DNA of 64,000 bases, from assembly GCF_001428545.1 (NCBI RefSeq), contig NZ_LMHZ01000017.1:27828-91827 (forward strand), in the 5' to 3' direction. The position numbers were made by a program, and so were the translations under genes. Source of the DNA: Noviherbaspirillum sp. Root189. GTDB taxonomy: Bacteria; Pseudomonadota; Gammaproteobacteria; Burkholderiales; Burkholderiaceae_D. The notes under the pieces are model-generated. The model was not told where the DNA came from. It did not search any database and saw nothing but the letters and a program-made list of their open reading frames with translations. Positions 6,998 to 24,662 of this stretch are shown here, one piece after another (within the stretch, counting starts at the first letter, position 1; the number at the start of each line of letters is the position of its first letter).

Positions 6998-7085
6998 TTT
7001 CGCATTCTATGGCAGAACTGTTCGGCTTATGCAATTCCGGTGCGAATCGCACCTTCGACGCATTCCATCATGTAAACAAACCAGT

Positions 7086-8438
7086 TCATGGAGCCGGCCT
7101 TTCCTGCTCATCCTCTGCCTCCGGATCAGGTTCAACGGCGTTTCCATTACCCGCCGGCGCGATCCTGCTTCGCATTTTTCGGGCAAGGCTGCCGATCGTT
7201 TGCTGCAATCGCTCTGCCATTACCTTTTCTGCGGGGTCGAGGAGGAGCTCTACCTCCCTTACAGCCATTGGGATTGCGGTTTCGACCTGGACCGCCATCT
7301 CGCGTGCGATTTTTTCGACATATTTGGGTCCCACACGGACTGATTCAGCCAACGCACGGATCTGCGGTGGGCCAATCTTGCCCGGCTCGGTCTCCCCGCC
7401 GATGGTGAATGCAAAGTTTTGTCCAAGTCCTGGATATACGCGAGTGCTCATGAGATCGTAGAAAGGGGCGAGGCGTAATCCTTCGTCCGTGGCGATCATC
7501 GACAGGTTCTTGGCATGCGAGTCATTGTTGCCAACATAGAGATTGAAGAACAGCCACCTCAGCAAATTGCGTTGATCGACGGCCGGGCGTGCGGAGTCCT
7601 TGAGGATCTCAAAACAGTCCCGGAACGACGGGCCGCCGTCTGCCTCGTATTTCACGTCAGAGGGCTTTCCGGCAATCTGGCAAAAGTCAGCCTGCCAAAG
7701 TCGCTTTAGCAATCCGTCTTCCCGGATCACCCGGTCGTACCGCTCAACCAGGCATGCTTTGACAACCGGCTGGTACGTCACGTTCGCTGTTGGTAGTTCG
7801 CAGAGCTGTGCTGCGCGCATGATGATCGTCTCGTTGACAGCAGAGGCGAAAATTTTGATATCCGGGCGCACCATGTCAGGCTTCAGAATATGCGTCGATG
7901 GCGCCGAGCCCATTGGCCGCAAGGGGTGTCCGTCCTCAGTGAGAGATACCAGCATTTTGAACTGCGCGCCTGAGATCGAGATGCGCGGTTTGGGTAGATC
8001 GGCAGCTGCTTTCTCGACGGCGGCACGTTCTCCGGCGAGTTCTCCATCAGCGTGGACCAATGCATTGACCTGTTCCCAGGTTAGACGCTGATAGATCGGA
8101 TGCTGCGGTGCCTGCCCTTCGGGAAGGAGCACAACTGAGCCGGCGGTATCTCCGCCAACCATCGACAGCATCCCAAAAACGCTGGAGACGTGATGGCGAA
8201 GGCTAATGATCTTCCGCTGGTCGCCTTCCGGGAGCAAGTTTTCGAAAAAAGCATGGACCTGCGCGGAATTATTTGAGCCCGGCGCCAGCGGCAATGTTGC
8301 ATGTAATGCCGTGGCTCCCGGCCGCCCGAGCCAGCTGTTTACGTAGCTAAAGCTCAGGGGATCCGTACGATGCAGGGTACCGACCAGTTCATCGTCCATG
8401 TAGACCGAAAGAGCATTTGGCACGGCTTGATCGCTCAT
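7086..8438 (-). CDS. hipA: HipA family serine/threonine kinase toxin
   Basis: A 450-residue HipA-type kinase. The N-terminal couple-HipA domain (about residues 5-110) includes FFENLLPEGDQRK and VGGDTAGSVVLLP. ISGAQFKMLVS (about 155-165) corresponds to the phosphate-loop region with the autophosphorylated serine of HipA. THILKPD is the ATP-binding lysine segment. The catalytic NNDSHAKNLS (Asp at about 306) and the metal-binding APFYDLMS (Asp at about 328) are both present, so the kinase appears intact. Known HipA toxins phosphorylate aminoacyl-tRNA synthetases and induce dormancy. The ATG overlaps the hipB stop by four bases, the normal antitoxin-first coupling. Confidence 0.93.
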   Translation of the reverse strand: MSDQAVPNALSVYMDDELVGTLHRTDPLSFSYVNSWLGRPGATALHATLPLAPGSNNSAQVHAFFENLLPEGDQRKIISLRHHVSSVFGMLSMVGGDTAGSVVLLPEGQAPQHPIYQRLTWEQVNALVHADGELAGERAAVEKAAADLPKPRISISGAQFKMLVSLTEDGHPLRPMGSAPSTHILKPDMVRPDIKIFASAVNETIIMRAAQLCELPTANVTYQPVVKACLVERYDRVIREDGLLKRLWQADFCQIAGKPSDVKYEADGGPSFRDCFEILKDSARPAVDQRNLLRWLFFNLYVGNNDSHAKNLSMIATDEGLRLAPFYDLMSTRVYPGLGQNFAFTIGGETEPGKIGPPQIRALAESVRVGPKYVEKIAREMAVQVETAIPMAVREVELLLDPAEKVMAERLQQTIGSLARKMRSRIAPAGNGNAVEPDPEAEDEQERPAP

Positions 8439-8710
8439 GACTTACCTTTTTTTCTGATCACAACCTCAAGGCCTAAAAGAGCAAGAATATCCATCGCTTT
8501 CTGCATCTGAACAGTCTTTTTTCCTTTCTCAAGGTCCACAATAAAGCGGTTACCCACGCCACCAAGTCCGGCGATGTCGAGTTGCGTCATGCCTTGGCTT
8601 TTACGTACCTGTTGGATGAGGGAACCAATATCCTCCATCCGTGAAACAGCGATGGGAAAGTCGCCACCATTCCGGTGCGGTAATTTTTCTTCCATTTCAT
8701 GCCCCATCAT
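8435..8710 (-). CDS. hipB: HipB-like helix-turn-helix antitoxin
   Basis: A 91-residue Xre-type DNA-binding protein upstream of and overlapping hipA. The helix-turn-helix spans about residues 27-80: GSLIQQVRKSQGMTQLDIAG, VGNRFIVDLEKGKKTVQMQK. It should bind HipA and repress the pair. The start is uncertain: ATG at 8710 has no strong ribosome site, and a Met at 8638 just before the domain is possible. Three copies of an operator-like sequence lie directly upstream. Confidence 0.88.
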   Translation of the reverse strand: MMGHEMEEKLPHRNGGDFPIAVSRMEDIGSLIQQVRKSQGMTQLDIAGLGGVGNRFIVDLEKGKKTVQMQKAMDILALLGLEVVIRKKGKS

Positions 8711-8715
8711 TGAGT

Positions 8716-8737
8716 AAAAATGACCGATCAGTAATTT
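8716..8737. promoter_or_regulatory. Probable HipB operator, proximal copy
   Basis: The sequence AAAAATGACCGATCAGTAAT lies six bases upstream of the hipB ATG. It matches the copy at 8765-8784 except for two bases. The core GACCGATCAGT is close to a palindrome around CGATC. Confidence 0.5.
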
Positions 8738-8764
8738 TATACAAGATACGCGGACCTATCAATT

Positions 8765-8838
8765 AAAAATGCCCGATCGGTAATCTTGGAGCTCAACGCT
8801 ATGTTTCTGTACTTCATAGTTACCGATCGGGCATTTTT
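8765..8838. promoter_or_regulatory. Perfect 19-bp inverted repeat, probable HipB operators
   Basis: AAAAATGCCCGATCGGTAA at 8765-8783 is exactly mirrored by its reverse complement at 8820-8838, with 36 bases between. Each arm contains the near-palindrome TGCCCGATCGGTA. With the copy at 8716 this makes three sites upstream of hipBA, as expected for cooperative autorepression. A stem-loop in RNA is an alternative reading. Confidence 0.6.
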
Positions 8839-9051
8839 GCATGGGCCTATCCGAGATTACGAAGAAGCTGGCTGTAACACCATGAAAGCACATTGCAAAT
8901 CCAGGTTTCAGCGTTGAACAGGCAGGGCAGCGAAAGACTACGCCTGCACCACCCGAATAAAGCGCCGACTTTAAACAAATAGCAATTCCTGAAAAGCGAG
9001 CCACGGGTATAACGATGTACAGGCTTTTCCAATCGCGTGTAAAGGCGGCCT

Positions 9052-9435
9052 ATGAACCTCGAAAAGGTGATATTTGCGTTTTTTATCGTTTTTGCAGCAA
9101 CGCTAAACTTTGGCTTTTTTATCGGCGATATCGACCGTCCAGAGTTGCATAATGTTTATGAACTGTTCGCCGCTATTGTCGTGAATTTAATTGCAACAAT
9201 ACTGAAATTCGGTGACCGCACGCAGATTGGCGCAGTGCTTTTATCCACTAGTCTGGTTGCGGATATTCAACTGATCGCGGCGGCGGTTATCTGGACCGTT
9301 GTCGTGCATGTTACCGGCACCGGTATGACACCCGAACACACGGCCAGTGTCGTTTCCTTATCCGGCGGAGCGCTTTTAGCCAATATCGTCTCTCTCATCA
9401 TGCTCATTGTTGAAACAGTCATGATGCGGCGTTAA
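9052..9435 (+). CDS. Small integral membrane protein paired with a potassium channel
   Basis: A 127-residue protein with three to four hydrophobic segments: VIFAFFIVFAATLNFGFFIG, VYELFAAIVVNLIATIL, LIAAAVIWTVVVHV, LANIVSLIMLIVETVM. AAAGGCGG precedes the ATG. It ends two bases before the double-RCK potassium channel gene, so the two are surely co-transcribed. It resembles the uncharacterised DUF6394-type proteins, recalled from memory and not searched. A role as channel accessory subunit is inference from adjacency only. Confidence 0.7.
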   Translation: MNLEKVIFAFFIVFAATLNFGFFIGDIDRPELHNVYELFAAIVVNLIATILKFGDRTQIGAVLLSTSLVADIQLIAAAVIWTVVVHVTGTGMTPEHTASVVSLSGGALLANIVSLIMLIVETVMMRR

Positions 9436-9437
9436 TC

Positions 9438-11129
9438 GTGAATAGTGTATTTTTCCTGATTCTGCGGCGCATGAGGGCACCCCTCATCGTGCTTGTCGTT
9501 CTCTACGCAGTGGGAGTACTGGGATTGACTCTCGTTCCTGGCGAGAACGCGGATGGGACGGCGGCACCGCCCCTTGGTTTTTTCCACGCCTTTTACTTCA
9601 TCAGTTACACCGCCACAACAATTGGTTTCGGCGAAATCCCCAAGGCCTTCTCCGATGCGCAACGACTGTGGGTCACGGTATGTATCTACATGACGGTGAT
9701 TGCATGGACCTACTCGATCGTCACCGTACTGGCGCTGCTAAAGGACACCGCATTTCTACAAACCTTGGTCGCCTCCCGTTTTGCCCGGCGTGTAAAACGT
9801 ATACAAACCCCTTTCTACCTGATTTGCGGATGTGGAGAGACCGGCAGTCTTATCTGTCGCGCTTTAGATATTCTGGGTTATGACTTTGCCATTCTGGAGA
9901 AAGATGGACTGCGGGTTGAAGAACTGGATATGGAGGACTTCATCACGAATGATCCGGTTCTTGCAGCTGACGCCTGCGTGTCGGACTATCTGCTGATGGC
10001 GGGCCTGCGCCATCAGCAATGTCGCGGAGTGCTGGCAGTGACCAACGATGAACAGGCCAATCTCGCGATCGCCATCAATGTACGTCTTCTCAACCCGGAG
10101 ATAACTGTTCTTGCTCGGGTACGGAGTCCATTGGTCGCCGCCAACATGGCCACATTCGGCACTCACCATATCGTGGATGCCTATGAGAGGTTTGCCGAAT
10201 ACCTGGCGATGGCAATTTTCTCTCCAGAGCGCTTTCGCCTTATCGAAATACTGACCGCGCTGCCGGGAACACCGCTACCGCAAGTGCACCGTCCGCCGCG
10301 CGGGCATTGGATCCTTTGTGGTTACGGTCAATTCGGAAACGCGATTACCCGTTTTTTTGCATTACCCGGCGTTAAGCTGTCTATTATTGATCCGAAGGGA
10401 GACGCCCCTGAGAATTTTCAGATCCTGAGGGGAACCGGAACGGAGGCAAGCGTATTGAAAGAAGCCGGCATCATGGAAGCCCGCGGTATTGTGGCCGGGA
10501 GTGACAACGACATCAGCAATCTCTCCATCGCCATGATGGCCAAAAAACTCAATCCGGATATATTTATTGTGGCGCGCCAGAACCAGGCCGCCAACGATGT
10601 GCTGTTCGATATATTTCGGCCCGATTTCAGCATGGTGCATACCCGCGTCGTGGCGCAGGAATGCATTTCGATTCTTACCACTCCGTTCCTTGCTCGTTTT
10701 CTCGGCGCTGTGCGAGGGGCTGACGAAAGCTGGTGCAAGAAAGTCTCCTCCCGCCTGGAATCTCTCTGTGACGGCCTCGTACCGGAAGTCTGGGACGTTA
10801 AGATTGAAGAGCACATCGCGCCGCCGGTACACCAGGCACTGATGGAGCACCAGCCTATCAGTGTCGGCCAGTTAATGCGGGACAATGCGAACTGGACAGC
10901 GGCCTTGCCAGCCATAGTCTTGATGATTGTGCGGCAAGGGGAGCAAGTTCTCCTTCCGGACGATGAGGTCAAGCTGAAGGCAGGCGATGCCCTTCTGATT
11001 GTCGGCCAGCACGCTGCTCGTTCTGCGCTACATCTGACACTGCAGAATGCGAATGCTTTGGATTACGTCCTTACCGGCCAGGACAGGCGCGGAGGCTGGT
11101 TGTGGCAGTTCCTTTTCGCTAAACGCTAG
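9438..11129 (+). CDS. Potassium channel with two TrkA-N (RCK) domains
   Basis: A 563-residue two-helix channel. TM1 spans about residues 14-32, the pore loop with selectivity filter TATTIGFGE about 58-66, and TM2 about 78-100. Two cytoplasmic RCK domains follow: the first Rossmann motif is LICGCGETGSLIC near 128-140 and the second ILCGYGQFGNAI near 291-302. A TrkA-C-like tail occupies roughly 470-545 (VLLPDDEVKLKAGDALLIVG). The filter reads GFG instead of GYG, a variant known among K+ channels. It probably gates K+ flow in response to nucleotides or ions and is coupled to the small membrane protein just upstream. Confidence 0.88.
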   Translation: MNSVFFLILRRMRAPLIVLVVLYAVGVLGLTLVPGENADGTAAPPLGFFHAFYFISYTATTIGFGEIPKAFSDAQRLWVTVCIYMTVIAWTYSIVTVLALLKDTAFLQTLVASRFARRVKRIQTPFYLICGCGETGSLICRALDILGYDFAILEKDGLRVEELDMEDFITNDPVLAADACVSDYLLMAGLRHQQCRGVLAVTNDEQANLAIAINVRLLNPEITVLARVRSPLVAANMATFGTHHIVDAYERFAEYLAMAIFSPERFRLIEILTALPGTPLPQVHRPPRGHWILCGYGQFGNAITRFFALPGVKLSIIDPKGDAPENFQILRGTGTEASVLKEAGIMEARGIVAGSDNDISNLSIAMMAKKLNPDIFIVARQNQAANDVLFDIFRPDFSMVHTRVVAQECISILTTPFLARFLGAVRGADESWCKKVSSRLESLCDGLVPEVWDVKIEEHIAPPVHQALMEHQPISVGQLMRDNANWTAALPAIVLMIVRQGEQVLLPDDEVKLKAGDALLIVGQHAARSALHLTLQNANALDYVLTGQDRRGGWLWQFLFAKR

Positions 11130-11286
11130 AGCAGTTGCGGTCTGACTGGCCGCCGGCTTGACGCGTCGCCGCTTCTCGCCCAATATTTCCGTTTGGAAAA
11201 CATAACTGCTTCGACAAATACAGGCTTTAGAGGGAGGGATGGCGACTGCGCCGCTCCTGTGTAAGCCGGCGGGATGAAGGAATACG

Positions 11287-12246
11287 ATGAACCTACGCTT
11301 TCTGGAAACATTCGTCTGGCTCGCTCGAATCCGTAATTTCCGGATGACCGCAGAGAAGCTCCACACGACGCAGGCGGCCGTGTCCAGTCGGATCGCGACC
11401 CTTGAGCAAGAACTTGGCGTGCGCCTATTCAACCGTGCCGACCGCGAAGTGACACTGACGCTGGAAGGAACCAAGGCGCTGATTTACGCCGAGCGCCTGG
11501 TGAATACTACCCAGGAGATGCTGGAAAACATGAAAGATCCGGCGCTATACACCGGGGTGGTACGCATCGGCGTCATCGAATCCATTATTCACTCTTGGTT
11601 TCCCGACCTGATGACGCGCATACATCGCGCCTATCCGCATCTGGAAGTGGAACTGGCAGGGGATACGACCATACGGTTGATCGAGCAATTCAACAAAGGG
11701 CATCTTGATGTCATCCTGCAGACCGATCCCGTGTTCGAGACAAATGTACAGAATTTGCCCCTATGCGATTTCCCGATGCGCTGGTTTGGTGCAACCGGAT
11801 TGAATCTCCAGGGTGATGTACTGACCCTGGCCGATATCGCGACGTTTCCGATCCTGAGCTTTTCGCGCAATTCAGGTCCGCATCGGTATCTGGAACGGCT
11901 GTTCAAGGATAAAACCGAGAAGCCGGTCAGGATCAATTGCATGACGTCGGTGTCTGCGATGGTGCGGCTCGTCGTCGACGGCTTCGGCCTGGCCATGCTC
12001 CCGCCTGCAATCGTGCAGAAAGAGCTGGCCAGTGAGAGTGTGTCTGCCCTGCGCATCGACAGCGATATGCCCAACATGTCCCTTATCTGCTCTTACCGGT
12101 CGCGATCGGAAACGCGGCTGTTTCAGCAGATCGCCATTGCTGCGCAGCAAAGTGCGCAGGATTTTGCGCGCGGGCTACCGGGAGAAGTGGCACGCATGCC
12201 GTCGACAGAAGTGCCGGGTGATCCATGGGCAATGGCGAGGCCATAA
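11287..12246 (+). CDS. LysR family transcriptional regulator
   Basis: A 319-residue regulator. The helix-turn-helix is in the first 60 residues (MNLRFLETFVWLARIRNFRM, TTQAAVSSRIATLEQELG, VRLFNRADREVTLT), with an effector-binding domain after about residue 90. It lies on the same strand as, and 98 bp upstream of, the DUF4286/TRAP operon, whose promoter sits in that gap. It is therefore the likely regulator of that operon. Confidence 0.92.
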   Translation: MNLRFLETFVWLARIRNFRMTAEKLHTTQAAVSSRIATLEQELGVRLFNRADREVTLTLEGTKALIYAERLVNTTQEMLENMKDPALYTGVVRIGVIESIIHSWFPDLMTRIHRAYPHLEVELAGDTTIRLIEQFNKGHLDVILQTDPVFETNVQNLPLCDFPMRWFGATGLNLQGDVLTLADIATFPILSFSRNSGPHRYLERLFKDKTEKPVRINCMTSVSAMVRLVVDGFGLAMLPPAIVQKELASESVSALRIDSDMPNMSLICSYRSRSETRLFQQIAIAAQQSAQDFARGLPGEVARMPSTEVPGDPWAMARP

Positions 12247-12285
12247 ATTTAATTGATCGGAAATGGAAAAAATTTCTTGTTTGCT

Positions 12286-12314
12286 TTGACAATTCGTCGG
12301 CGTCAGAATAGATA
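12286..12314 (+). promoter_or_regulatory. Sigma-70-type promoter of the TRAP/amidase operon
   Basis: TTGACA at 12286-12291 is a perfect -35 box, followed after 17 bases by TAGATA at 12309-12314 as the -10 box. The first gene starts at 12345. The spacing is optimal. Confidence 0.65.
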
Positions 12315-12344
12315 ATCGTTAACACAACTCTCTGGCTGGCTTCT

Positions 12345-12992
12345 ATGAACGCTGACAAGGAACGCGGCTTACTTTGCATCTGGACCGATGTTGATCGTGA
12401 GCACGAACTGGATTTTAATCGCTGGTATGACCGCGAACATATGCAGGAGCGCGTGGCGATTCCTGGCTTTCAGAGCGCGCGTCGTTTTGCCGCAGTAAGC
12501 CCCTGTCCAAGGCCTTATCTGGCGCTTTACTACACGGACAGCCTTGATACTTTCCAGTCTGAGGCCTACCGGACCGCATTTGCAAACCAGACTACCTGGT
12601 CGCTCGAGAACTTCAAACGCATGCGCGGCACGCAGCGGCGCGTCGGCCGTTTGAGTCTGGAGCATGGTGAAGGGGAGGGCGGGGCGCTCGCATTGTTTGT
12701 CGTGCCAGAAAATATCCTCAGCCAGGCGGACATCAAAAACCAGCTGCGGCAGAACCTGATGGATCTGACCGGCGAAGACCACATCATACGCACGACGCTG
12801 CTTGAGACCGATGCGGCCTTGTCCACGCCTGTGACGGCAGACGCGCAGCCTACACCTGCGGATGGCGTTGTGATGATTGAGGCCACGCGCGTGGAAGTTG
12901 CACAGCAACATGCGCAGGCGTTATCCCAATCCGTAGGGCTTCCCTTGGAAGAAGTCTATTCGTTTCAGTCGCTCTGGCGGCTTGCTTCCTAA
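12345..12992 (+). CDS. DUF4286-like protein (EthD-type ferredoxin fold)
   Basis: A 215-residue soluble protein. It opens with GLLCIWTDVDREHELDFNRW and YDREHMQERVAIPGF, matching the pattern of DUF4286/EthD-like dimeric alpha-beta barrel proteins. The second half (ALALFVVPENI, VVMIEATRVEV) seems to repeat the fold. The function of this family is unsettled; relatives act in ring-opening and oxygenase pathways. It is the first gene of the operon, 20 bp before the TRAP receptor, so it may be a small pathway enzyme or sensor. The start has no obvious ribosome site. Confidence 0.7.
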   Translation: MNADKERGLLCIWTDVDREHELDFNRWYDREHMQERVAIPGFQSARRFAAVSPCPRPYLALYYTDSLDTFQSEAYRTAFANQTTWSLENFKRMRGTQRRVGRLSLEHGEGEGGALALFVVPENILSQADIKNQLRQNLMDLTGEDHIIRTTLLETDAALSTPVTADAQPTPADGVVMIEATRVEVAQQHAQALSQSVGLPLEEVYSFQSLWRLAS

Positions 12993-13012
12993 ATTTTTTT
13001 GGAGAGAGACAC

Positions 13013-13990
13013 ATGACCCTGAACCGCCGCTACTTCCTTACCGGCATGGCCGCCCTGTGCCTAAGCCTGTCATCAGCCCATGCTGCCGAACGCTGGAACA
13101 TGTCCACCGAGCAGCCCGATGGTAACTACATCACGGCTGTCGCGCGCGACTTTGCGGCTGACGTGGCCAAGGCTACCAACGGCGAACTCGACATCAAGAT
13201 TCATTCCAATTCGGTGCTGTTCAAGCGCGCCGATCTCAAGCGTGCCGTCCAGACCGGTCAGGTGCCGCTCGGCGACGTGCTGGTGTCGGTGCTGGGCAAC
13301 GAGGATGCCATCTTTGAAGTTGACGCGGTTCCTCTGTTGGCACGCGACTTCGACAGCGCCTGGAAGTTGTGGCAGGCAAGCCGCGCACAGATGGAGGCGC
13401 GCTTGCAGAAGCAAGGCATCAAGCTGCTTTATAGCGTGCCATGGCCACCGCAGGGTATCTACACCAAGGTGCCCGTCAAGCAAATGTCCGACTTCAAGGG
13501 TATGAAGTTCCGCGCCTACAATGCCGCAACGTCGCGCCTGGTCGAACTGATGGGTGCCTCGCCGACCACGGTCAACTCGGGCGACGTTCCGCAAGCTTTC
13601 GGAACCGGCCTGATCGAAGCCATGATCACGTCGCCGGCCACCGGCGTCGACTCCCAGGCGTGGGACTTCGCCAAGTATTACTACGACGTGCAGGCTTTCA
13701 TCCCGAAGAACGTGGTCATGGTCAATGCACGTGCGTTCGCAAGGCTGCCCCAGGCTTCACAGAAAGCAGTACTGGCTGCTGCCGAACGTGCTGAAAAGAA
13801 AGGCTGGGAAGTCGCGCGGTCCAAGACCAGTGAGCTGACTCAGACTCTGGCCAAGAACGGCATGGTCGTCGGCCCGACGCCTGAAGCAATGCAACCGGAA
13901 CTGGCCAAGATCGGTGCAGTAATGGCTGAAGAATGGCTGAAGAAAGCCGGTCCCGAAGGCAAGGCGATACTTGACCAGGCTAAGCGTTAA
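13013..13990 (+). CDS. TRAP transporter solute-binding protein (DctP type)
   Basis: A 325-residue periplasmic receptor. A signal peptide (FLTGMAALCLSLSSAHAAE) is followed by a DctP domain: FAADVAKATNGELDIKIHSN, the segment with MKFRAYNAATSRLVELMGAS, and VNSGDVPQAFGTGLIEAM. The receptor arginine in KFRAYN is the usual carboxylate contact. GGAGAG stands about ten bases before the ATG. With the DctQ and DctM genes just downstream it forms a sodium-driven uptake system, probably for an acid made or used by the amidase and oxoprolinase-like enzymes of the operon. Confidence 0.93.
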   Translation: MTLNRRYFLTGMAALCLSLSSAHAAERWNMSTEQPDGNYITAVARDFAADVAKATNGELDIKIHSNSVLFKRADLKRAVQTGQVPLGDVLVSVLGNEDAIFEVDAVPLLARDFDSAWKLWQASRAQMEARLQKQGIKLLYSVPWPPQGIYTKVPVKQMSDFKGMKFRAYNAATSRLVELMGASPTTVNSGDVPQAFGTGLIEAMITSPATGVDSQAWDFAKYYYDVQAFIPKNVVMVNARAFARLPQASQKAVLAAAERAEKKGWEVARSKTSELTQTLAKNGMVVGPTPEAMQPELAKIGAVMAEEWLKKAGPEGKAILDQAKR

Positions 13991-13993
13991 GCA

Positions 13994-14497
13994 ATGACGT
14001 TCCTGCATCGGCTATACCGGCTCTCCGGGCTATTGTCAGCGACAGCTCTGGTACTGATCTGCGTGTTGATCATGGCGCAAGTCATCGCCCGGAATTTTGG
14101 CTCCACAGTGCGTGACGCGGAAGAGTTCGCCGCTTGGGCGATGGCCGCGGCGGGCTTTCTCGGCTTGCCTTATGCGTTGCACTGCGGGTCTCATATCCGG
14201 GTGGAGGTGGTCATGCGCTTCATTCCACAGCGCCTCCATCAGCCGATGGAAGTTCTGGTATCGGTTATCGGCCTGCTGCTGGCAGCTTATCTGGCTTGGT
14301 ATTGCACTGCGTTTGTGATTGAAAGCTATCAATTCAATGAGGTGTCGCAGGGCTTGATTGCGGTACCGCTGTGGCTGCCTCAGTTACCAATGGCGATCGG
14401 CACGATCCTGCTGGTGGTGGCTTTTGGAGAGCGGCTGGTGCGAGTGCTGCGGCATGAAAATTTTGAAATCGGTGCTGGCGAAGCGAGGAGCGAGTAA
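13994..14497 (+). CDS. TRAP transporter small permease (DctQ type)
   Basis: A 167-residue protein with four hydrophobic helices (LLSATALVLICVLIMAQVIA near residue 15; SVIGLLLAAYLAWY near 92; LPMAIGTILLVVAF near 131) and the family motif RDAEEFAAWAMAAAGFLG. It starts four bases after the receptor stop, and its last base overlaps the DctM start codon. It is the membrane partner of the large permease. Confidence 0.9.
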   Translation: MTFLHRLYRLSGLLSATALVLICVLIMAQVIARNFGSTVRDAEEFAAWAMAAAGFLGLPYALHCGSHIRVEVVMRFIPQRLHQPMEVLVSVIGLLLAAYLAWYCTAFVIESYQFNEVSQGLIAVPLWLPQLPMAIGTILLVVAFGERLVRVLRHENFEIGAGEARSE

Positions 14498-15801
14498 TGG
14501 ACATGCTGTGGCTCGCGATCGTGCTTGGCGGCGCACTTCTCGTGCTGTTAAGCATGGGCGTATGGATTGCGCTGGCGCTGATCGCCGTAGGTATCATCGG
14601 CATGGAGGTCTTCGCCGGCGCGCCTGGCGGATCCATTCTCGCCACGAACAGTTGGGCATCAAGCGCCAGCTGGACCATGACGGCCCTGCCATTGTTTATC
14701 TGGATGGGCGAAATTCTGTTTCGCACCAAGCTGTCGGAAGACATGTTTGCAGGACTGGCACCCTGGGTGGACAAATTGCCAGGTCGTCTGCTGCATGTCA
14801 ATGTCCTCGGGTGCGGTATCTTTGCCGCGGTCAGCGGATCGTCTGCAGCGACAGCCGCCACCATAGGCCGTATTTCCCTTCCCGAACTCAAGTCGCGCGG
14901 TTATCCAGAGAGTATTTCCATCGGATCGCTGGCAGGGTCGGGGACGCTGGGTCTTCTGATTCCGCCTTCGATTATCATGATTGTGTATGGCGTCGCAGCC
15001 CAGATCTCAGTCGCCCGGCTGTTCATCGCCGGCGTGTTGCCCGGGCTGCTCCTGATGGTCCTGTTCTCGGGATACATCATTCTATGGGCGGGACTGAACA
15101 AGGAGCAGATTCCTGCTGCAACGCTGAAGATGAGTTTCGTCGAGAAACTTAACGCGTCGAGAAGCCTGATTCCGGTAGTGCTTTTGATCATCGGCGTCAT
15201 CGGCTCCATCTATGCTGGATTTGCGACCGCCACTGAAGCTGCCGCTATCGGCGTGGTTGGCGCACTATTGATCGCAGCCATGTCGGGTATGCTGACGCGC
15301 GTCACATTTGTCGAAAGCCTGCTCGGCGCGGTGCGAACTTCGACAATGATCTTCTTCATTCTGCTGGGGGCAGCCTACCTGACTTCTGCGATGAGCTTTA
15401 CCGGTCTGCCCGCAGCGCTTGCGAACTGGATTGCCGGCGTGGGCATGCCTGCCTGGGCGCTGCTGGCGGCGCTGACCTTGTTCTTCATCGTACTAGGCTG
15501 CTTTCTGGATGGAATTTCGATCGTGTTGCTGACGACTTCGGTGATTTTGCCGGCTGTCCAGGCGGCGGGCATCGATCTGCTCTGGTTCGGTATTTTTATC
15601 GTTCTCGTCGTCGAGATGGCACAGATCACGCCGCCTGTTGGCTTCAATCTGTTCGTCGTGCAGAGCATGAGCGGAAAGGACATCTTCACGATAGCAAAGG
15701 CCTCTTTCCCGTTTTTCGTTCTCATGATCGTTGCCGTCGCGTTGATCACAATGTTTCCGCAGATTGTGTTGAGCCTGCCGAGCGCCATGGTGGCCCGCTG
15801 A
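14497..15801 (+). CDS. TRAP transporter large permease (DctM type)
   Basis: A 434-residue, roughly twelve-helix permease. Family motifs include VSGSSAATAATIGRISLPEL near residues 110-130, GTLGLLIPPSIIMIVYG, and the closing TPPVGFNLFVVQ. It carries the transport path of the TRAP system and is translationally coupled to the DctQ gene. The PPSIIMIVYG segment is intact, so the transporter looks functional. Confidence 0.93.
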   Translation: MDMLWLAIVLGGALLVLLSMGVWIALALIAVGIIGMEVFAGAPGGSILATNSWASSASWTMTALPLFIWMGEILFRTKLSEDMFAGLAPWVDKLPGRLLHVNVLGCGIFAAVSGSSAATAATIGRISLPELKSRGYPESISIGSLAGSGTLGLLIPPSIIMIVYGVAAQISVARLFIAGVLPGLLLMVLFSGYIILWAGLNKEQIPAATLKMSFVEKLNASRSLIPVVLLIIGVIGSIYAGFATATEAAAIGVVGALLIAAMSGMLTRVTFVESLLGAVRTSTMIFFILLGAAYLTSAMSFTGLPAALANWIAGVGMPAWALLAALTLFFIVLGCFLDGISIVLLTTSVILPAVQAAGIDLLWFGIFIVLVVEMAQITPPVGFNLFVVQSMSGKDIFTIAKASFPFFVLMIVAVALITMFPQIVLSLPSAMVAR

Positions 15802-15822
15802 ACCTGTTGACGAAAGTGATTC

Positions 15823-17175
15823 ATGTCCCTTCCTCCTAATACCCTGGATTACTGGCGCGGTGAACTGCACAGTGGTCGCGTCAGCAGTCGGGAGCTGACT
15901 GAACTGGCGCTGCAGGCCGCATTGAACTCGAGCGAAGCCCAGTCAACCTTCATCGCAGTGCATGCCGCCACTGCGCGTGCCACGGCTGACGCAATGGACA
16001 CGCTGCGTGCAGCCGGGGTGCCATTGGCGCCGCTGGCAGGCATTCCCATCTCGATCAAGGACTTGTTCGATGAAAACGGACAAGTCACGCGTGCAGGTTC
16101 CATAGTTCGAAATGACGCGGCACCGGCATCACGCGACAGCATCGTCGTGGAACGCCTGCGGCAGGCTGGCGCGGTGATCATCGGCCGCACCAACATGACT
16201 GAATTTGCGTATTCGGGCCTGGGTCTGAATCCGCACTACGGCACGCCGCGCAACCCCTGGGATCGCGAGACGGGAAGGATTCCCGGCGGTTCTTCTTCAG
16301 GCGCCGCCATATCGATCACCGAAGGTGCCGCCGTTGCTGCGATTGGCACCGATACAGGGGGCTCTGTCCGCATTCCTTCCGCACTTTGCGGGCTGACCGG
16401 ATTTAAACCAACTGCGAGGCGTGTGCCCGACACCGGCGTATTGCCGCTATCGACCAGTTTGGATTCGATCGGTCCCCTTGCCCGCAGCGTGTCCTGCTGT
16501 GCCCAGCTCGATGCGGTACTGTCTGGCACTTCTCGTACGGATCTCCGCCCAGTCTCACTGGCCAACCATCGTTTTGCCATACCGCGCACCCTGGTCTTTG
16601 ACGGCATTGATGCTACGGTGAGCGCAGCGTTCGAAGCGGCATGCGGCACGTTGTCGAAGGCGGGGGCAAGGCTAGTCGAGATTGAGGTGCCGGAGTTTGC
16701 CGAACTTGCGCATATCAACCGGCACGGAGGCTTCATAGCCGCCGAGTCGTGGACCTGGCATGCCGATATGCTCGGACAACGTGAAGCGGAATACGATCCG
16801 CGAGTGGCGGTACGGATTCGTAGAGGCGCTGCAATGCGAGCCTCGGATTACATCACGCTACTCAACGATCGCAGGCGCTGGAGTGCGGGCGTGCAGCAGC
16901 GCCTTGCGGATGCGGGCTGCGATGCGTTTTTGATGCCGACCGTACCGGTAATCGCGCCGCCGATTGCCGCACTGCGTGACAGCGACGAACTGTATACGTC
17001 CACCAACCTGCTCATCCTGCGCAATCCAACACTATTCAACTTTGTTGATGGCTGTGCGCTGAGCTTGCCCTGCCACAAGCCGGGCGATGCGCCGGTCGGC
17101 CTGATGGTTGCAGGCATGCATGGACAGGACGAGCAGATACTCATGCTCGGCGCAGCCATTGAAGCAGCGCTCTAG
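15823..17175 (+). CDS. Amidase-signature family amidohydrolase
   Basis: A 450-residue amidase of the Ser-cisSer-Lys class. Catalytic Lys79 lies in GIPISIKDLFDENG, the cis-Ser lies in PGGSSSGAA (about 157-159) and the nucleophile Ser181 in GTDTGGSVRIPS. All three are present. It hydrolyses an amide bond and is co-transcribed with the TRAP system and an oxoprolinase-like enzyme, so its substrate is probably an amide or ring-opened intermediate of an N-containing compound. GatA of the tRNA transamidosome is excluded: no gatB or gatC lies nearby. Confidence 0.88.
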   Translation: MSLPPNTLDYWRGELHSGRVSSRELTELALQAALNSSEAQSTFIAVHAATARATADAMDTLRAAGVPLAPLAGIPISIKDLFDENGQVTRAGSIVRNDAAPASRDSIVVERLRQAGAVIIGRTNMTEFAYSGLGLNPHYGTPRNPWDRETGRIPGGSSSGAAISITEGAAVAAIGTDTGGSVRIPSALCGLTGFKPTARRVPDTGVLPLSTSLDSIGPLARSVSCCAQLDAVLSGTSRTDLRPVSLANHRFAIPRTLVFDGIDATVSAAFEAACGTLSKAGARLVEIEVPEFAELAHINRHGGFIAAESWTWHADMLGQREAEYDPRVAVRIRRGAAMRASDYITLLNDRRRWSAGVQQRLADAGCDAFLMPTVPVIAPPIAALRDSDELYTSTNLLILRNPTLFNFVDGCALSLPCHKPGDAPVGLMVAGMHGQDEQILMLGAAIEAAL

Positions 17176-17244
17176 CAAGTGATCTAAATCGTTAGGGCAG
17201 GATTCTGCGTATGCCTGTCCGCCGTCACACTATAAGGAGATGCA

Positions 17245-18294
17245 ATGGCAGACAGGATTGCTGTCATTCTTGGCGGCACCGGCATGGTCGGTGCCAATAT
17301 GGCCCAGCTGCTGGACAAGGTGGGCGGATGGGACGTGACGATCGTGTCGCGCCGTCCGCCGCAGTTTGAGACCCGGGCCCGTCATGTCGAGTGTGACATG
17401 AGCGACCCCGCCGATTGTGCGGTCGCACTGGGACAACTGACACAGGTCACGCACATTTTCTGGACCGGCCACGCGACCGGTACGCGTTGGGTGGACAAGG
17501 CTTCCAGGGATACAGACCTGTTCCGAAATGCCATGACGTCGATCCTGCCGGGTGCCAGCCGTCTGGAACACGTTTCGCTGCTGCAGGGTTCGAAATATTA
17601 CGGTCGACACCTGGGGCCATTCAAGACACCGGCGAAGGAGAGCGACGCACGCCACTTTCCGCCGAACTTCTATTACACGCAGGAAGACCTGCTCAAAGAG
17701 CTTGCACGCGGCAAGCGATGGAGTTATTCACTGATGCGGCCGCATATCGTCTGCGGCTATGCGCGCACGGACATCAACCTGCCCAAGCCGATCGCCGTCT
17801 ACGCCACCTTATGCAAGAAATTGGGATTGCCGTTGCGCTTTCCAGGGCCGGAAGCCGCATTTCGTGCTATCCATTGCGCAAGCGACGTCGAGTTGCTGAA
17901 CAAGGGCATGCTCTGGGCGGCCACCACGCCTGCAGCCGCCAACGAGGCTTTCAACATGGTTAACGGCGACCACTTCCGGTGGCAATATCTATGGCCGCGG
18001 ATTGCGGAGTATTTTGAGCTCGAGAACGGTGGGGTACAGCAGATCGATCTCGAACTCATGATGGCGGACAAGGAAGAGTTATGGAATGAAATCGTGCAGG
18101 AGCATGGCTTGCTGCCGACGCCATTTTCGGAGGCCGCCAATTGGGCATTCGCCAATTATGCATTTGCTCCGACCTGGGACATCATGCTCGACAACACGAA
18201 GGCAAGAAAATATGGGTTCCAGGAATTTGTCGATTCGGAAGACATGTTCATCCGGATCTTTGACAGCTTCAGGCAGCAACGCTTCATTCCCTGA
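17245..18294 (+). CDS. PRISE-type SDR reductase (progesterone 5-beta-reductase/iridoid synthase-like)
   Basis: A 349-residue extended short-chain dehydrogenase. The N-terminal Rossmann motif is [13 protein letters not shown] (about residues 7-19). The hallmark [10 protein letters not shown] (about 140-150) carries the conserved Tyr typical of the PRISE group instead of the usual YxxxK. Further on come [14 protein letters not shown] and [17 protein letters not shown], both characteristic. Known members reduce the carbon-carbon double bond of enones with NADPH. GGAGATG lies right before the start. Between an amidase and an oxoprolinase-like enzyme it suggests an unsaturated carbonyl in the pathway. 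Confidence 0.82.
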
Positions 18295-18386
18295 GTTCGA
18301 GCGGGTATGCGCAACTGCCGTCTACACCATCATTCGCATCCGTTTCCGATGCCGGGACGGTGCAACACCGTAATAGGGCCAATATC

Positions 18387-21300
18387 ATGACCACCGATGC
18401 ATCACATTTCAGCCTGCAAGACAGTCGGCGCTGGCAATTCTGGATTGATCGTGGCGGCACCTTCACCGATATCGTTGCTCGCCGCCCGGACGGCCTTCTG
18501 GTGACCCACAAGCTGCTCTCCGAAAACCCCGGCCAGTATGACGACGCAGCATTGGCGGGTATCCGCGCGTTGCTGGGATTGAAGACGGGCGATCCAATCC
18601 CGGCTGACCAGGTGGAAGCGGTCAAGATGGGAACCACGGTTGCGACCAATGCCTTGCTTGAACGCCAGGGCGAACCCACGCTGCTGCTCACCACCAAGGG
18701 ATTCCGGGACGCGTTACGTATCGGATATCAGGCACGTCCGCGGATATTCGATCGTCGCATCACGCTGCCAGAACTTCTGTACCGCCGTGTCGAGGAAATC
18801 AACGAACGTATCACCGCGCAAGGCGACGTATTGCAGGAAATGCAGCAGGACGAGTTACGGGTGAAGCTGCAGGCGGCGCTCGACGCCGGGATACGCTCGA
18901 TCGCGATTGTCTTCATGCACGCATACCGGTATCCGCAGCACGAGCAGGTAGCTGTGAAGATGGCAAATGAGATAGGTTTTACCCAGGTATCGGCTTCCCA
19001 CCAGATCAGTCCGATGATGAAACTGGTTGGACGCGGCGATACCACCGTCGTTGATGCTTATCTGTCCCCGCTGCTGCGGCGCTACGTGGACAGGATCGCG
19101 CGGGAGCTTTCCGGCATCAAGCTGATGTTCATGCAGTCCAGTGGTGGACTCACCGCAGCCGATCAGTTTCAGGGAAAGGATTCAATTCTGTCAGGTCCCG
19201 CCGGCGGCATTGTCGGCATGGTGCGTGTAGCGGAGGCCGCAGGCGCGCATCAGATCATAGGATTCGACATGGGTGGCACGTCGACCGACGTGTCTCATTA
19301 CAACGGGGAATTCGAACGCGCATTCGAGACCCAGGTTGCCGGTGTGCGGATGCGCGCTCCGATGATGAACATCCATACGGTGGCCGCGGGCGGCGGGTCG
19401 ATCCTGCAATTCGATGGCGCACGCATGCGCGTCGGGCCGGACTCGGCGGGTGCCAACCCGGGACCTGCAGCTTACGGCAATGGCGGACCGCTCGCCGTTA
19501 CGGACTGCAACGTCTTGCTGGGCAAAGTTCAGCCTGCGTTCTTTCCGCAGATCTTCGGACCGCAGGCAAACCAGCCGCTCGATACCGGGACAGTGCAGCA
19601 AAAATTTAAAGACCTGGCAGCCCAAATTACCGCAGATACCGGCCGTGCCAGCACGCCGGAATCGGTTGCCGAAGGCTTCATCAGCATCGCCGTGTCCAAC
19701 ATGGCAAATGCGATCAAGAAAATTTCCGTTGAGCGTGGTTACGACGTGACTAAATACACGCTGGTCAGCTTCGGTGGCGCCGGCGGCCAGCATGCCTGCC
19801 TGGTGGCCGATGCGCTCGGGATGAATCGTGCACTGATTCATCCGCTGGCCGGCGTATTGTCTGCCTACGGGATGGGACTGGCGGACATCACGGCCATGCG
19901 GGAAACCAGCATTGAATTACCGTTGCACCAGGATAGCCTGTCGCAATGCGACGTGGTACTGGCAGAGATGGCTGTCAGAGCAACGCAGCAGGTCGCGACA
20001 CAGGGCATCGCGCAGGAACGCATCAGTCTCGTCCGGCGCGCTCACCTTCGTTACGAAGGAACGGACGCTGCATTGGTGGTCGATTACGTGGACGTGCCTG
20101 GAATGCAGGCAGCGTTCGAGGCCGCCTACCGGCAGCGCTACAGCTTTCTGATGCCGGACAAGCCGCTCATCATTGAAGCCCTATCGGTGGAGGCGATTGG
20201 CCGGAGCGGCGAGCAGGCACGGGCTCCCGACGTTACGCAGGCAAGCGCCGGTACATTGCCCGCAGCCACCGCGACTGTGCGCATGTATTCGGGCGGCCGA
20301 TACCATGACACGCCGGTGTACCGACGGGAAAACCTGGGCGCCGGACTCCGCATTGCCGGTCCCGCTATCGTTTCCGATGCCAATGCCACGACGGTGGTGG
20401 AACCTGAATGGCAGATGGAAACCCTGCCGGGTGGCGAATTCCTCCTCACGCGTGCCGCGCAACGCGCACAGCGTTTTGCGATTGGCACCGCGGTCGATCC
20501 AGTGATGCTTGAAATTTTCAACAACCTGTTCATGTCGATCGCGGAACAAATGGGCGCAACACTTGCGAACACCGCATTCTCGGTCAACATAAAGGAACGA
20601 CTCGATTTCTCGTGCGCGCTTTTCGACGTCGACGGTAGCCTTATTGCGAATGCGCCGCACATGCCGGTGCATCTCGGTTCGATGGGCGAGAGTATCAAGA
20701 CCGTCATCCGAAAAAACGCGGGATGCATACGACCCGGGGACACTTATGTGCTGAATGACCCCTACAACGGTGGCACACACCTGCCCGACGTTACTGTCGT
20801 CACGCCGGTATTTGACGAAGCGGAACAGGACCTGCTGTTTTTCGTTGCGTCGCGCGGCCATCATGCGGACATCGGCGGCATCACGCCCGGCTCAATGCCG
20901 CCGAACAGCAAGTCAGTTGAAGAAGAAGGTGTGCTGCTGGACAATTTCAAGCTTGTCGAGAGCGGGCACCTGCGCGAGCGCGAGTTACGTGAACTGCTCA
21001 GTGGAGGCCGCTATCCTACCCGCAATCCGGATCAGAATGTCGCCGACCTGCGCGCACAGATCGCCGCCAATGAGAAGGGCGTCGCCGAACTGCGGCGCAT
21101 GGTACGGGAGTTCGGCCTAGAAGTGGTCAGGGCTTACATGAAGCACGTGCAGGACAACGCGGAAGAAGCGGTGCGCCGCGTCATCGGCGTGCTGAAAGAC
21201 GGCGAATTTGCCTACGAAATGGACAACGGCGCAACCATTCGGGTAGCCGTCAAGGTCAACAGCGAAGCGCGTAGCGCAGTCATCGACTTCACCGGCACGT

Positions 21301-22076
21301 CAGATCAGCTGCCGAACAACTTTAATGCACCGTCAGCCGTATGTATGGCCGCGGTACTGTATGTGTTCCGCACACTGGTCGACGACGAGATCCCGATGAA
21401 TGCCGGCTGCCTGAAGCCGCTGCAGGTCATCATTCCTGAAGGCTCGATGCTCAATCCACACGTTCCCGCCGCTACCGTCGCCGGCAACGTCGAGACGTCG
21501 CAATGCATTACCGATGCGCTGTATGGCGCGCTCGGCGTCATGGCAGCCGCACAGGGGACCATGAACAATTTCACGTTTGGTAACGCCCGGTACCAGTACT
21601 ACGAGACCATCTCGGGCGGTTCCGGTGCGGGCCTGCTTGGCAAAGACGAACGTGGCGAGCTGCTTTGCTTCGACGGTACCGATGTGGTTCAGACGCACAT
21701 GACCAACTCCCGTCTTACCGATCCCGAAGTACTGGAATGGCGCTTCCCTGTCTTGCTGGAGAGCTTCGAAATCCGTACTGGAACTGGCGGCGCCGGGCAA
21801 GGCACTGGCGGAAATGGCGCAATCCGTCGCATTCGCTTCCTCGAACCAATGACGGCGTCCATCCTGTCGAACCGACGACGTATTCCTCCGTTTGGACTGG
21901 CGGGAGGAGCGCCGGGAGTCGGCGGCCTCAACTATGTGGAGCGACGGGACGGTACGCGCATTGACCTTGGCGCGACCGATTCAATCGAGATGCTGCCCGG
22001 CGATGTGTTTGTCGTCGAAACGCCAGGCGGCGGCGGGTTCGGTCCGCCGCGCGTGGCCAAAGCCGGACAACATTGA
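18387..22076 (+). CDS. Fused hydantoinase A/B, 5-oxoprolinase-like ATP-dependent amidohydrolase
   Basis: A 1229-residue fusion of HyuA- and HyuB-type subunits, like eukaryotic and bacterial 5-oxoprolinases. The HyuA half has the nucleotide-binding start [36 protein letters not shown], and [16 protein letters not shown]. The HyuB half begins near residue 705 ([19 protein letters not shown]) with [20 protein letters not shown] and [13 protein letters not shown], and ends [17 protein letters not shown]. Such enzymes open a lactam or hydantoin ring at the cost of ATP. ATG at 18387 is preferred to GTG at 18360 on family alignment. The last bases overlap the next gene's TTG start. It may act on 5-oxoproline, a hydantoin or another cyclic amide. 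Confidence 0.9.
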
Positions 22077-22963
22077 GTCATCAAAAATTGAACAAAAACG
22101 CAATATTTATTCATGTCGCTGGTTTATGGACACTCTCCACGCTGGATGCTTCGGCAAAGTGGCTGGTTCTTGCAGGTGTGCCGGTGCTCATGGTGACATG
22201 GGTGCGCTACGTGATGCACATTGCCCTGATGACCGCGCTTGTGCTGCCATCGCAACGCAGCGCCATCTTCAAGACCCGGTCCTTGTCACGCCAGTTGATC
22301 CGCGGCTTGCTGATGGTATTGTCCACAGTGCTGTTCTTCTCGGTTCTCAGGCGTCTTCCGCTTGCCGAAGCAACCTCACTCAATTTCATGGCCCCGTTGT
22401 TCCTGATGGCCATGGCGCCGTGGCTGCTTGATGAGACGCATCGATGGCACCGCTGGGTCGGCGTGGTGATGGGTTTTGCTGGTGTGCTGATCATCGTGCG
22501 CCCAGGATCGCCGCTTGATCCTGTTGGCGTCGCGCTTGGTCTGCTGACGGCACTCACGTTTGCCTTTTTTCAGATCGCCACGCGTCGCGTCGCGCATGAT
22601 CACCCGTTAACGACAAATTACTATGGCGGTCTTTTCGGCTCGGTCGCGTTGACACTGGCGTTACCATGGTTTTGGAAAACACCGGAGCTGTCGCCAGGAC
22701 AGTGGTTGCTGTTGATGTCTACCGGCGTTACCGGGTTTGTCGGTCACTTGATGCAGATTATGGCGTACAGCAAAGCACAGGCGACACTGCTTGCACCGTT
22801 CAGCTATTTGCAGATCATCGCGGCGGTCGCGCTCGGCTGGCTGGTGTTCGGCCAGCTGCCGGATCTGACCACGGTGTTTGGCATTGCCCTGATCGGCCTC
22901 GCGGGACTTGCCGTGGTGTTATGGGAAACGCGGATGGCGTTCTCGCGGACGGTGAAGCAGTAA
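22073..22963 (+). CDS. EamA/DMT family transporter
   Basis: A 296-residue ten-helix drug/metabolite transporter with two EamA repeats. The first carries [20 protein letters not shown] and the second ends with [20 protein letters not shown]. The likely start TTG at 22073 overlaps the oxoprolinase stop (TTGA), so translation is coupled. It is the last gene of the operon and may export a by-product or regulate solute levels. Direction of transport cannot be told from sequence. Confidence 0.85.
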
Positions 22964-23055: not shown

Positions 23056-24399
23056 TTAAATGACGCCTTGGGCCAGCATTGCGTCCGCCACTTTGACGAA
23101 ACCGGCGATGTTTGCTCCGTCCACATAACTAAGGCTGCCATCTGCACGCTTGCCGTACTCCAGGCAGGCTGCGTGGATGGCTTGCATGATCTGCAGCAGG
23201 CGGCCATCTACCTCTTCACGCGGCCAGGAAATGCGCTCCGCGTTCTGGCTCATCTCCAGGCCGGACGTGGCGACACCTCCGGCATTGCTGGCCTTGCCTG
23301 GCGCATAGAGAACACCGGCTGCTTCGAATGCTTTTGCAGCATCAATGGTCGACGGCATGTTGGCGCCTTCGGCCACGCACAGTACGCTGTTCCTGATGAG
23401 AGTCGCAGCATCATTGGCATCCAGTTCATTTTGGGTCGCGCATGGTAGCGCCACATCCACCGGAACATGCCATGGGCGCACACCGGGCTCGAAGCGCGTG
23501 CCGGTACGTCCGGCATAATCGCTGACGCGGCCATAAAGATGGTTCTTCACTTCCATCAAAATGGCGAGCTTTTCGGGGGTGAAGCCGTCTTCATCGATGA
23601 TGGTGCCGCTGGAGTCGGACACCGTAATGACCTTTGCACCAAGGGCCATGGCTTTTTCCACCGCGTACTGCGCGACATTGCCTGAACCGGAGACACTAAC
23701 GCGCAGACCGTCAAACGATCGGCCACGCGTCTTGAGCATTTCATCTGCAAAATATACGGTGCCATAACCAGTAGCCTCGGGACGGATCAGCGAACCGCCG
23801 AAGCTCAAGCCTTTGCCGGTGAATACGCAGTCAGCACGGTTGGTCAGTTTCTTCATCATGCCGGTCATGTAACCCACTTCGCGGCCACCTACGCCAATGT
23901 CACCGGCAGGAACGTCGGTATCGGCGCCGACATGGCGAAACAGTTCGCTTACGAAGGCTTGGCAGAAGCGCATGACCTCGCCTGGGCTCTTGCCTTTTGG
24001 GTCGAAATCCGACCCGCCTTTGCCCCCACCCATAGGCAGCGTGGTCAACGCATTCTTGAAGGTTTGCTCGAAGGCCAGGAATTTCAGGACTGACAGGTTG
24101 ACGGTCGGATGGAAGCGCAGGCCGCCCTTATAGGGGCCGATCGCCATGCTGTGCTGAATGCGATAGCCGCGATTGACTTGGACCTGGCCGTGATCATCCA
24201 CCCAGGAAACACGAAACATCACTACGCGCTCAGGCTCCACCAGGCGGTCAAGCAGACCTTGATCGGCATATTTCGGATGCTTCTCAATGTAAGGCCACAA
24301 GCTTTCCATGACTTCTGTGACTGCCTGAAGGAATTCAGGTTGACCGGAATTGCGGTCAGCAACATGTTGCAAGAACTGGTGCGCTGAAGCGTACTTCAT
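23056..24399 (-). CDS. gdhA: NADP-specific glutamate dehydrogenase
   Basis: A 447-residue enzyme, the same length as E. coli GdhA, forming glutamate from 2-oxoglutarate and ammonia with NADPH. Visible motifs are YKGGLRFHPTVNLSVLKFLA and FKNALTTLPMGGGKGGSDFD (catalytic Lys and glycine-rich substrate loop), PAGDIGVGGREVGYM, and the nucleotide-binding VSGSGNVAQYAVEKA. The start at 24399 has GGA eight bases upstream; the frame extends another 19 codons without support. It stands alone and convergent with the preceding operon. Confidence 0.95.
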   Translation of the reverse strand: MKYASAHQFLQHVADRNSGQPEFLQAVTEVMESLWPYIEKHPKYADQGLLDRLVEPERVVMFRVSWVDDHGQVQVNRGYRIQHSMAIGPYKGGLRFHPTVNLSVLKFLAFEQTFKNALTTLPMGGGKGGSDFDPKGKSPGEVMRFCQAFVSELFRHVGADTDVPAGDIGVGGREVGYMTGMMKKLTNRADCVFTGKGLSFGGSLIRPEATGYGTVYFADEMLKTRGRSFDGLRVSVSGSGNVAQYAVEKAMALGAKVITVSDSSGTIIDEDGFTPEKLAILMEVKNHLYGRVSDYAGRTGTRFEPGVRPWHVPVDVALPCATQNELDANDAATLIRNSVLCVAEGANMPSTIDAAKAFEAAGVLYAPGKASNAGGVATSGLEMSQNAERISWPREEVDGRLLQIMQAIHAACLEYGKRADGSLSYVDGANIAGFVKVADAMLAQGVI

Positions 24400-24662
24400 A
24401 TCGGATTCCAAAAGAAAGAAAAGATTTAAAACCTTATTTTCGCATGATTGATGCACCAGGATAGTGCACTTCTTTTATCCTGATCTATAGTTGATATGTT
24501 CGTTCCTCGCATTAATTGTCGTTATTACCTATGGATGTGATTACCGGAGAAGAATTAGGTGATGTAAATAAATAATCATTTTGCAAGGCTAGCCCCGTCC
24601 ACTTACCGAAGTCGGTTAGAATCGACAGTACGTACCGGATTCTCCGGCGTCCATGGCACGAG

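Follow-up and report, generated by a model that had tools for sequence, protein, structure and literature searches.

A conserved TRAP transporter, amidase and PRISE reductase operon in Noviherbaspirillum sp. Root189 with a probable link to 5-oxoproline

Introduction

The receptors DctP6 and DctP7 of the tripartite ATP-independent periplasmic (TRAP) transporters of Bordetella pertussis both bind 5-oxoproline (pyroglutamate) (PMC13274462, PMC12344293). The dissociation constant of DctP7 for this ligand is 0.3 µM and a gene encoding a eukaryotic-type 5-oxoprolinase is located in the vicinity of the two receptor genes (PMC13274462). Bacterial PRISE/VEP1 genes, which encode reductases that are best known from plants, were listed in 2011 and have a patchy distribution; one of them ends an antibiotic cluster (chondrochlorens), and roles in interactions with plants have been proposed (PMC3144213, PMC8778713). 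We found no paper in the openly licensed literature that ties a bacterial PRISE to nutrient breakdown. Here we analyse a 64,000-nucleotide stretch of the Noviherbaspirillum sp. Root189 genome (GCF_001428545.1, contig NZ_LMHZ01000017.1, positions 27,828 to 91,827), hereafter the window, which at 12345-22963 contains an operon that combines a TRAP transporter related to the Bordetella receptors, an amidase, a PRISE reductase, a fused lactamase of the 5-oxoprolinase type and a small barrel protein, g1. The core of this operon is conserved in gene order in eight further species, and its sequence relationships make 5-oxoproline, or a close relative, a likely node of the pathway.

Results

The window carries eight co-directional genes between 12345 and 22963 on the forward strand, with open reading frames (ORFs) where a preliminary description of this DNA had placed its genes and with intergenic gaps of -4 to 92 bp. 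The tight packing noted in that description is therefore correct, although its count of seven genes is not, since the TRAP system alone accounts for three. The first gene, g1 (12345..12992), encodes a 215-residue protein that matches no Pfam family above cut-off and is predicted from a structure model to form a two-repeat ferredoxin-like alpha+beta barrel. It is followed by dctP, encoding the TRAP receptor (13013..13990), dctQ, encoding the small membrane subunit (13994..14497; PF04290), dctM, encoding the large membrane subunit (14497..15801; PF06808, TIGR00786), and genes for an amidase-signature hydrolase of the PRK07056 subfamily (15823..17175; PF01425, NF005460), a putative NADPH-dependent enone reductase of the PRISE type (17245..18294; PF22917), a fused ATP-dependent lactamase of the 5-oxoprolinase type, HyuAB (18387..22076), and an EamA-family transporter (22073..22963; PF00892). 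Matches to DctP, DctQ, DctM, Amidase, PRISE, EamA and four hydantoinase/oxoprolinase domains, the latter in a single chain, each exceed the Pfam cut-off, in agreement with the TRAP importer, amidase and PRISE genes reported initially. A LysR-type regulator (11287..12246, forward strand; PF03466/PF00126), outside the range first described, opens the conserved cluster 98 bp before g1 and is transcribed in the same direction.

The PRISE protein was run against named species genomes in one scan, which returned 93 relatives, 80 of which were kept: eight close loci with 82-95% PRISE identity and 72 others. Genes at these loci (L146-L225) were counted by tblastn, because a mechanical ORF caller masked some of them with longer frames that overlap them (PRISE in L150 and dctM in L152 are examples). 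The contexts of 20 hyuAB places, of g1 loci, of 15 dctP loci and of Ramlibacter lithotrophicus, presented below, were derived with the ORF caller and blastp, and genes may be missed in them. The close loci belong to Noviherbaspirillum malthae, N. aerium, two Polaromonas (barely different from each other in this region), three Ramlibacter and one Rubrivivax metagenome-assembled genome (MAG). The order LysR-g1-dctP-dctQ-dctM-amidase-PRISE is found in all eight of these loci from other species, with LysR in L151 present as a fragment only. At the remaining 72 PRISE loci, 24 of which offer less than 12 kb of sequence, g1, dctM or hyuAB was detected in none and an amidase match in two. The EamA gene is present at two of the eight related loci, only those from Noviherbaspirillum; HyuAB and EamA are outside the conserved core.

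Across the operon proteins, the ratio of nonsynonymous to synonymous substitution rates (dN/dS) was 0.03-0.23 in four comparisons, although dS values of 0.70-2.51 make these ratios rough. PRISE gave 0.028 (L146), 0.046 (L147), 0.042 (L148) and 0.050 (L153), lower than any other operon gene in three comparisons, whereas in the remaining one dctP was at 0.045 against 0.046 for PRISE. By these estimates PRISE and DctP appear to be under the strongest constraint in the operon, and PRISE, with its lowest or near-lowest dN/dS, is therefore no loose passenger. Chance or artefact was rejected as an explanation in view of the conserved gene order and the low, if rough, dN/dS, and the comparisons support the view that the operon genes form a conserved unit.

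The best PDB match of DctP was 2pfy (381 bits; pairwise identity 58.5%), which we take to be DctP7 of Bordetella pertussis, with 2pfz presumably being DctP6. A receptor tree of 31 rows included eight of the nine module receptors, that of the window among them (L149, a near copy of L148, was left out). The module receptors group with those of L256 and L257, and 2pfy adjoins them at 100/99, which places them in one clade with a receptor for which binding of 5-oxoproline has been reported; 2pfz groups with receptors of which two adjoin hyuAB in other genomes. The arginine of the FRAY-type segment, presumably the residue that binds the carboxylate, is present in all 31 rows. No second receptor of the DctP kind was found in the genome at E <= 1e-50 among the 11 of 21 candidates scored. 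In 399 genomes of the order, with at most five candidates scored per genome, no DctP match above 52% identity was found beyond two genomes (76-77%). At the 15 dctP loci, which comprise all 14 DctP matches from order genomes other than its own plus one more and include some short contigs, hyuAB was located beside the receptor gene or within ~3 kb in seven, amidase in one, g1 in two and PRISE in none. In Ramlibacter lithotrophicus the module adjoins a second TRAP system with a receptor that shares 69% identity with 2pfz, hinting that the two systems may take up different compounds. L256 and L257 come from two genomes of another family and have g1 directly upstream of dctPQM, with a receptor identity of 76-78%; amidase and PRISE were not seen there, and at L256 g1-dctPQM adjoins a TetR gene and a gene for an AMP-dependent ligase.

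HyuAB comprises 1229 residues from the ATG at 18387, within an ORF that opens at a GTG at 18360, and contains Hydant_A_N, Hydantoinase_A, Hydant_A_C and Hydantoinase_B in one chain, the arrangement of the fused (eukaryotic-type) 5-oxoprolinases. The ATP motifs listed for enzymes of this type (PMC8453981) are present at 30 (DxGGTxTD), 303 (DxGGT) and 364 (GxxPGP), numbered from the GTG, and Asp749, His807, Asp810 and His834 align with all four metal ligands of CapB. Length, domains and motifs agree with the ATP-dependent ring-opening enzyme of 1229 residues that had been predicted. No further PF01968 protein was detected in the genome, making HyuAB the only copy, and PxpA was not found there. 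HyuAB is likely to be the 5-oxoprolinase of most core genomes, because the fused form is present in eight of the nine and PxpA in one. More widely, a HyuAB match at E <= 1e-100 is present in 101 of the 195 genomes in the family, mostly at 59-70% identity, a count that includes partial matches and a few at about 31% identity. Around 20 of the listed HyuAB places, amidase, PRISE and g1 were not found at any, a dctP match occurred at six and the full dctPQM at three.

The position of hyuAB relative to the core varies. It is directly downstream in four of nine species (the window, L146, L147 and L153), upstream and divergent in L150, and beyond the flanking DNA of the core, elsewhere in the genome, in three. 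In a HyuAB tree of 33 rows with 200 bootstrap trees, the Noviherbaspirillum copies are separate from the Ramlibacter copies, and the core-linked Ramlibacter copies group with Ramlibacter and Polaromonas copies that are unlinked to the core. The core-linked copies require two changes on this tree and a single change is allowed by 0% of the bootstraps, for which two separate linkings of HyuAB to the core would be the simplest reading.

The PRISE protein matches PF22917 at 80.3 bits (cut-off 27), with a plant progesterone 5-beta-reductase as its best PDB match (204 bits). K117 and Y143, which we take to be the catalytic lysine and tyrosine from an alignment to 2v6f, and both clamp phenylalanines, F126 and F302, are kept in all nine module copies, as would be expected of the double-bond reductase of the PRISE group proposed at the outset. 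Phenylalanine at the second clamp position is found in only 12 of 86 other aligned PRISE rows, 71 of which have histidine instead. The Phe clamp has been tied to small, hydrophilic enones in PRISE enzymes (PMC11643720, PMC8778713). The amidase matches PF01425 at 293.3 bits and NF005460 at 642.9 bits against a cut-off of 447. It carries the amidase signature, with Lys79, GGSSSG at 155-160 and DTGGS at 177-181, and we assume that the lysine and the serine motifs form the catalytic triad.

The product of g1 had been described as DUF4286-like, but its match to this family (PF14114; E 0.0078, 16.9 bits) falls below the curated cut-off of 25.8 bits, and membership was rejected. A model built from a 24-row alignment (predicted local distance difference test score 93.8) shows the two-repeat barrel, and the alignment has eight invariant columns, including W27, H32 and R36, with E35 nearly invariant. 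Structures that resemble the model (Foldseek/VIA) include an anthrone oxidase-like protein, found by Foldseek with E 2.7e-10, sulfur oxygenase reductases, putative monooxygenases and a bacterial chalcone isomerase, the last with Z about 11 at a root-mean-square deviation of 5 Å, a match at the level of the fold. When the PDB was searched for sequence relatives, the single protein gave one chance-level match (E 0.62), and the 24-row profile gave no match at E values up to 10. Chalcone isomerase produces an enone in a reverse Michael reaction in which the proton is accepted by His33, a residue connected to Asp36 through water (PMC9694015). The histidine-acid spacing of g1, which is that of chalcone isomerase, is suggestive, and only suggestive, of a proton-transfer enzyme.

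Within the family, g1 and PRISE genes lie no more than 10 kb apart in four of 23 same-genome pairs (window included), where 0.079 are expected (P = 8e-5 for three or more), and the g1 family recurs near transport and catabolic-type genes. At L042 (G000:C3:28500-48400), at ~5890-13452, a second PRISE gene of the genome adjoins a further TRAP set together with a g1-like gene and an IclR gene; a 150-residue ORF among these genes resembles, by eye, a type II dehydroquinase. At L040 (G017:C32, 139-4827), PRISE is located between two g1-like genes together with a gene of the arylmalonate decarboxylase/Asp-Glu racemase type and an FAD enzyme. TRAP genes are mentioned for arylmalonate decarboxylase clusters, and the terms amidase, epimerase, hydantoinase and oxoprolinase are absent from the available text (PMC4996985). 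Four loci in one genus of the family (L124, L141, L142 and L143) contain LysR-g1-(two genes)-amidase clusters that lack PRISE, with identities to the window of about 40% for the regulator, 41-42% for g1 and 49-50% for the amidase; at L141, the only one scanned, the two intervening genes encode an MFS importer and a DUF2848 protein. A search of the openly licensed literature returned nothing on point for DUF2848 or for pyrrole-2-carboxylate gene clusters.

The 98 bp gap between the LysR gene and g1 (12247..12344) is a probable control region, as judged from an alignment of seven upstream regions, window included, which have the short blocks TGAT-G and TTGTT in common. A strong promoter had been proposed for the operon, but no consensus strong promoter was found, with 0 sigma-70-like sites between 11500 and 24000, where shuffled sequences averaged 4.9. 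A TTGACA can be seen at 12286-12291, with no -10 element at normal spacing, and is not exactly kept among six aligned relatives. Convergent to the operon, on the reverse strand at 23056-24456, is a gene for an NADP-type glutamate dehydrogenase, which would fit glutamate as product; it is present at none of the eight related loci and was rejected as an operon partner.

Discussion

The reading that we favour, with a probability of roughly 45%, is that a 5-oxoproline-type carboxylate is taken up and converted by g1, PRISE and the amidase, and that HyuAB opens the product to glutamate. The data above show which genes are present and that their order is kept, that they are under purifying selection, to which families the proteins belong, which catalytic motifs they carry and that HyuAB is repeatedly linked to the core; which compound is used, how the steps follow one another and what each protein catalyses are inferred. 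LysR would control a catabolic operon and DctPQM would import a small cyclic carboxylate akin to 5-oxoproline. g1, with its invariant histidine, would move protons and so make or rearrange a carbonyl-activated C=C bond, which the NADPH-dependent PRISE would reduce; the amidase would cleave an amide, and HyuAB would use ATP to convert the lactam formed in this way, most probably 5-oxoproline, to glutamate by ring opening. Pairs of receptor and HyuAB are found in other genomes without these additional enzymes, and the core persists without an adjacent HyuAB; both would be accounted for most simply by a compound that the core converts into 5-oxoproline or a similar lactam. In the preliminary description, an unsaturated lactam or imide was imported, reduced, opened and hydrolysed; the connection of receptor and ring-opening enzyme to a lactam, 5-oxoproline, is supported, whereas the unsaturated substrate and the step order were guesses. 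Its remark that no described pathway with this gene set was known agrees with our search of the openly licensed literature, which yielded no such operon, most subscription papers being outside its scope.

Several observations weigh against the favoured reading. The PRISE substrates documented in the sources cited here are enones and 8-oxogeranial, not lactams; no sequence relative of g1 was found in the PDB, and its fold serves many functions. The closest solved relative of HyuAB carries the name N-methylhydantoinase, and the work on caprolactamase shows that annotation in the HyuAB family does not give the substrate (PMC6061476). A single old linkage followed by gene replacement could also account for the HyuAB tree, and the Rubrivivax MAG has only a 34% HyuA match. 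Two further points, that hyuAB is not adjacent to the core in four of nine species and that g1 and PRISE at L033 and L042 accompany TRAP receptors just 21-24% identical to DctP, so that the g1-PRISE pair is not tied to 5-oxoproline, also favour a different account, in which the compound broken down by the core (LysR-g1-TRAP-amidase-PRISE) is a different small carboxylate amide that contains an enone, such as an aromatic or plant-derived acid, and HyuAB is a neighbour for general 5-oxoproline recycling. The LysR-g1-amidase clusters of another genus, which lack TRAP and PRISE and at L141 include an MFS importer and DUF2848, are in keeping with this. We consider it unlikely, as the receptor remains inside the 2pfy clade and HyuAB has apparently been linked to the core twice.

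Plain use of 5-oxoproline, imported by DctPQM and converted to glutamate by HyuAB, with g1, amidase and PRISE as accessories (enone detoxification, or side substrates such as 5-oxoproline amides), seems to us somewhat unlikely. Receptor and HyuAB are both of the 5-oxoproline type, such pairs occur without the rest at seven of 15 dctP loci, the genome has no other such receptor (11 of 21 candidates scored), PF01968 protein or PxpA, and plant PRISEs have been proposed to remove reactive electrophiles. Yet PRISE ranks among the operon's most constrained proteins, g1-TRAP-amidase-PRISE persist without adjacent HyuAB, and the second TRAP system of Ramlibacter lithotrophicus would be redundant. Induction and growth data tying the operon to an already known substrate, such as 5-oxoproline alone, had been named beforehand as the refuting case for an uncharacterised pathway; the receptor clade and HyuAB do point there, but 5-oxoproline alone leaves g1, amidase and PRISE unexplained. 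A pathway for hydantoin, caprolactam or a cyclic imide is disfavoured and very improbable. Hydantoinases and caprolactamase belong to the HyuAB superfamily, but the best caprolactamase model scored 347.8 bits against a cut-off of 1000. Hydantoin racemase and carbamoylase genes mark hydantoin clusters, and models for neither were seen in the domain tables of the operon proteins. Moreover, hydantoin and caprolactam lack a carboxylate, and TRAP receptors are restricted to carboxylates (PMC4646407).

We regard as doubtful a more specific route, as yet undescribed, in which PRISE reduces an unsaturated pyrrolidone carboxylate to 5-oxoproline, which HyuAB opens to glutamate; the unsaturated substrate might arise, for example, from pyrrole-2-carboxylate through g1 acting as a cofactor-free oxygenase or isomerase. 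If true, this would be, as far as we could find, the first nutrient-breakdown role for a bacterial PRISE, and it would assign a function to the g1 family for the first time. The conserved operon joins PRISE to a receptor clade of known ligand type, such that a small binding screen could reveal the substrate, and would offer a starting point for finding out what the g1 family does.

The module shares features with several known systems. Like pxpTABC of Corynebacterium glutamicum, it would combine dedicated uptake with ATP-dependent opening of 5-oxoproline, but the enzyme, transporter and regulator of that system are unrelated to those of the module (PMC13274462), and PxpA was not found in eight of the nine core genomes. 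CapAB of Pseudomonas jessenii belongs to the same superfamily as HyuAB, which keeps the ATP motifs and the four metal-site residues (PMC6061476, PMC8453981); CapAB consists of two subunits, whereas HyuAB is fused, and activity with 5-oxoproline was not detected for CapAB in the work available (PMC6061476). The chalcone isomerase of Eubacterium ramulus has two ferredoxin-like domains and a His33/Asp36 pair (PMC9694015) with the same spacing as H32/E35 of g1, although no sequence similarity was found between the two proteins. The module PRISE has the family, the Lys/Tyr pair and the Phe clamp in common with known PRISEs (PMC11643720, PMC8778713) and, unlike them, is located in a bacterial operon of catabolic type. 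Finally, Bordetella pertussis DctP6 and DctP7 represent the same receptor clade with a fused ATP-dependent lactamase nearby, as in the module; the available account of these receptors makes no mention of g1, amidase or PRISE (PMC13274462), whereas the module has all three.

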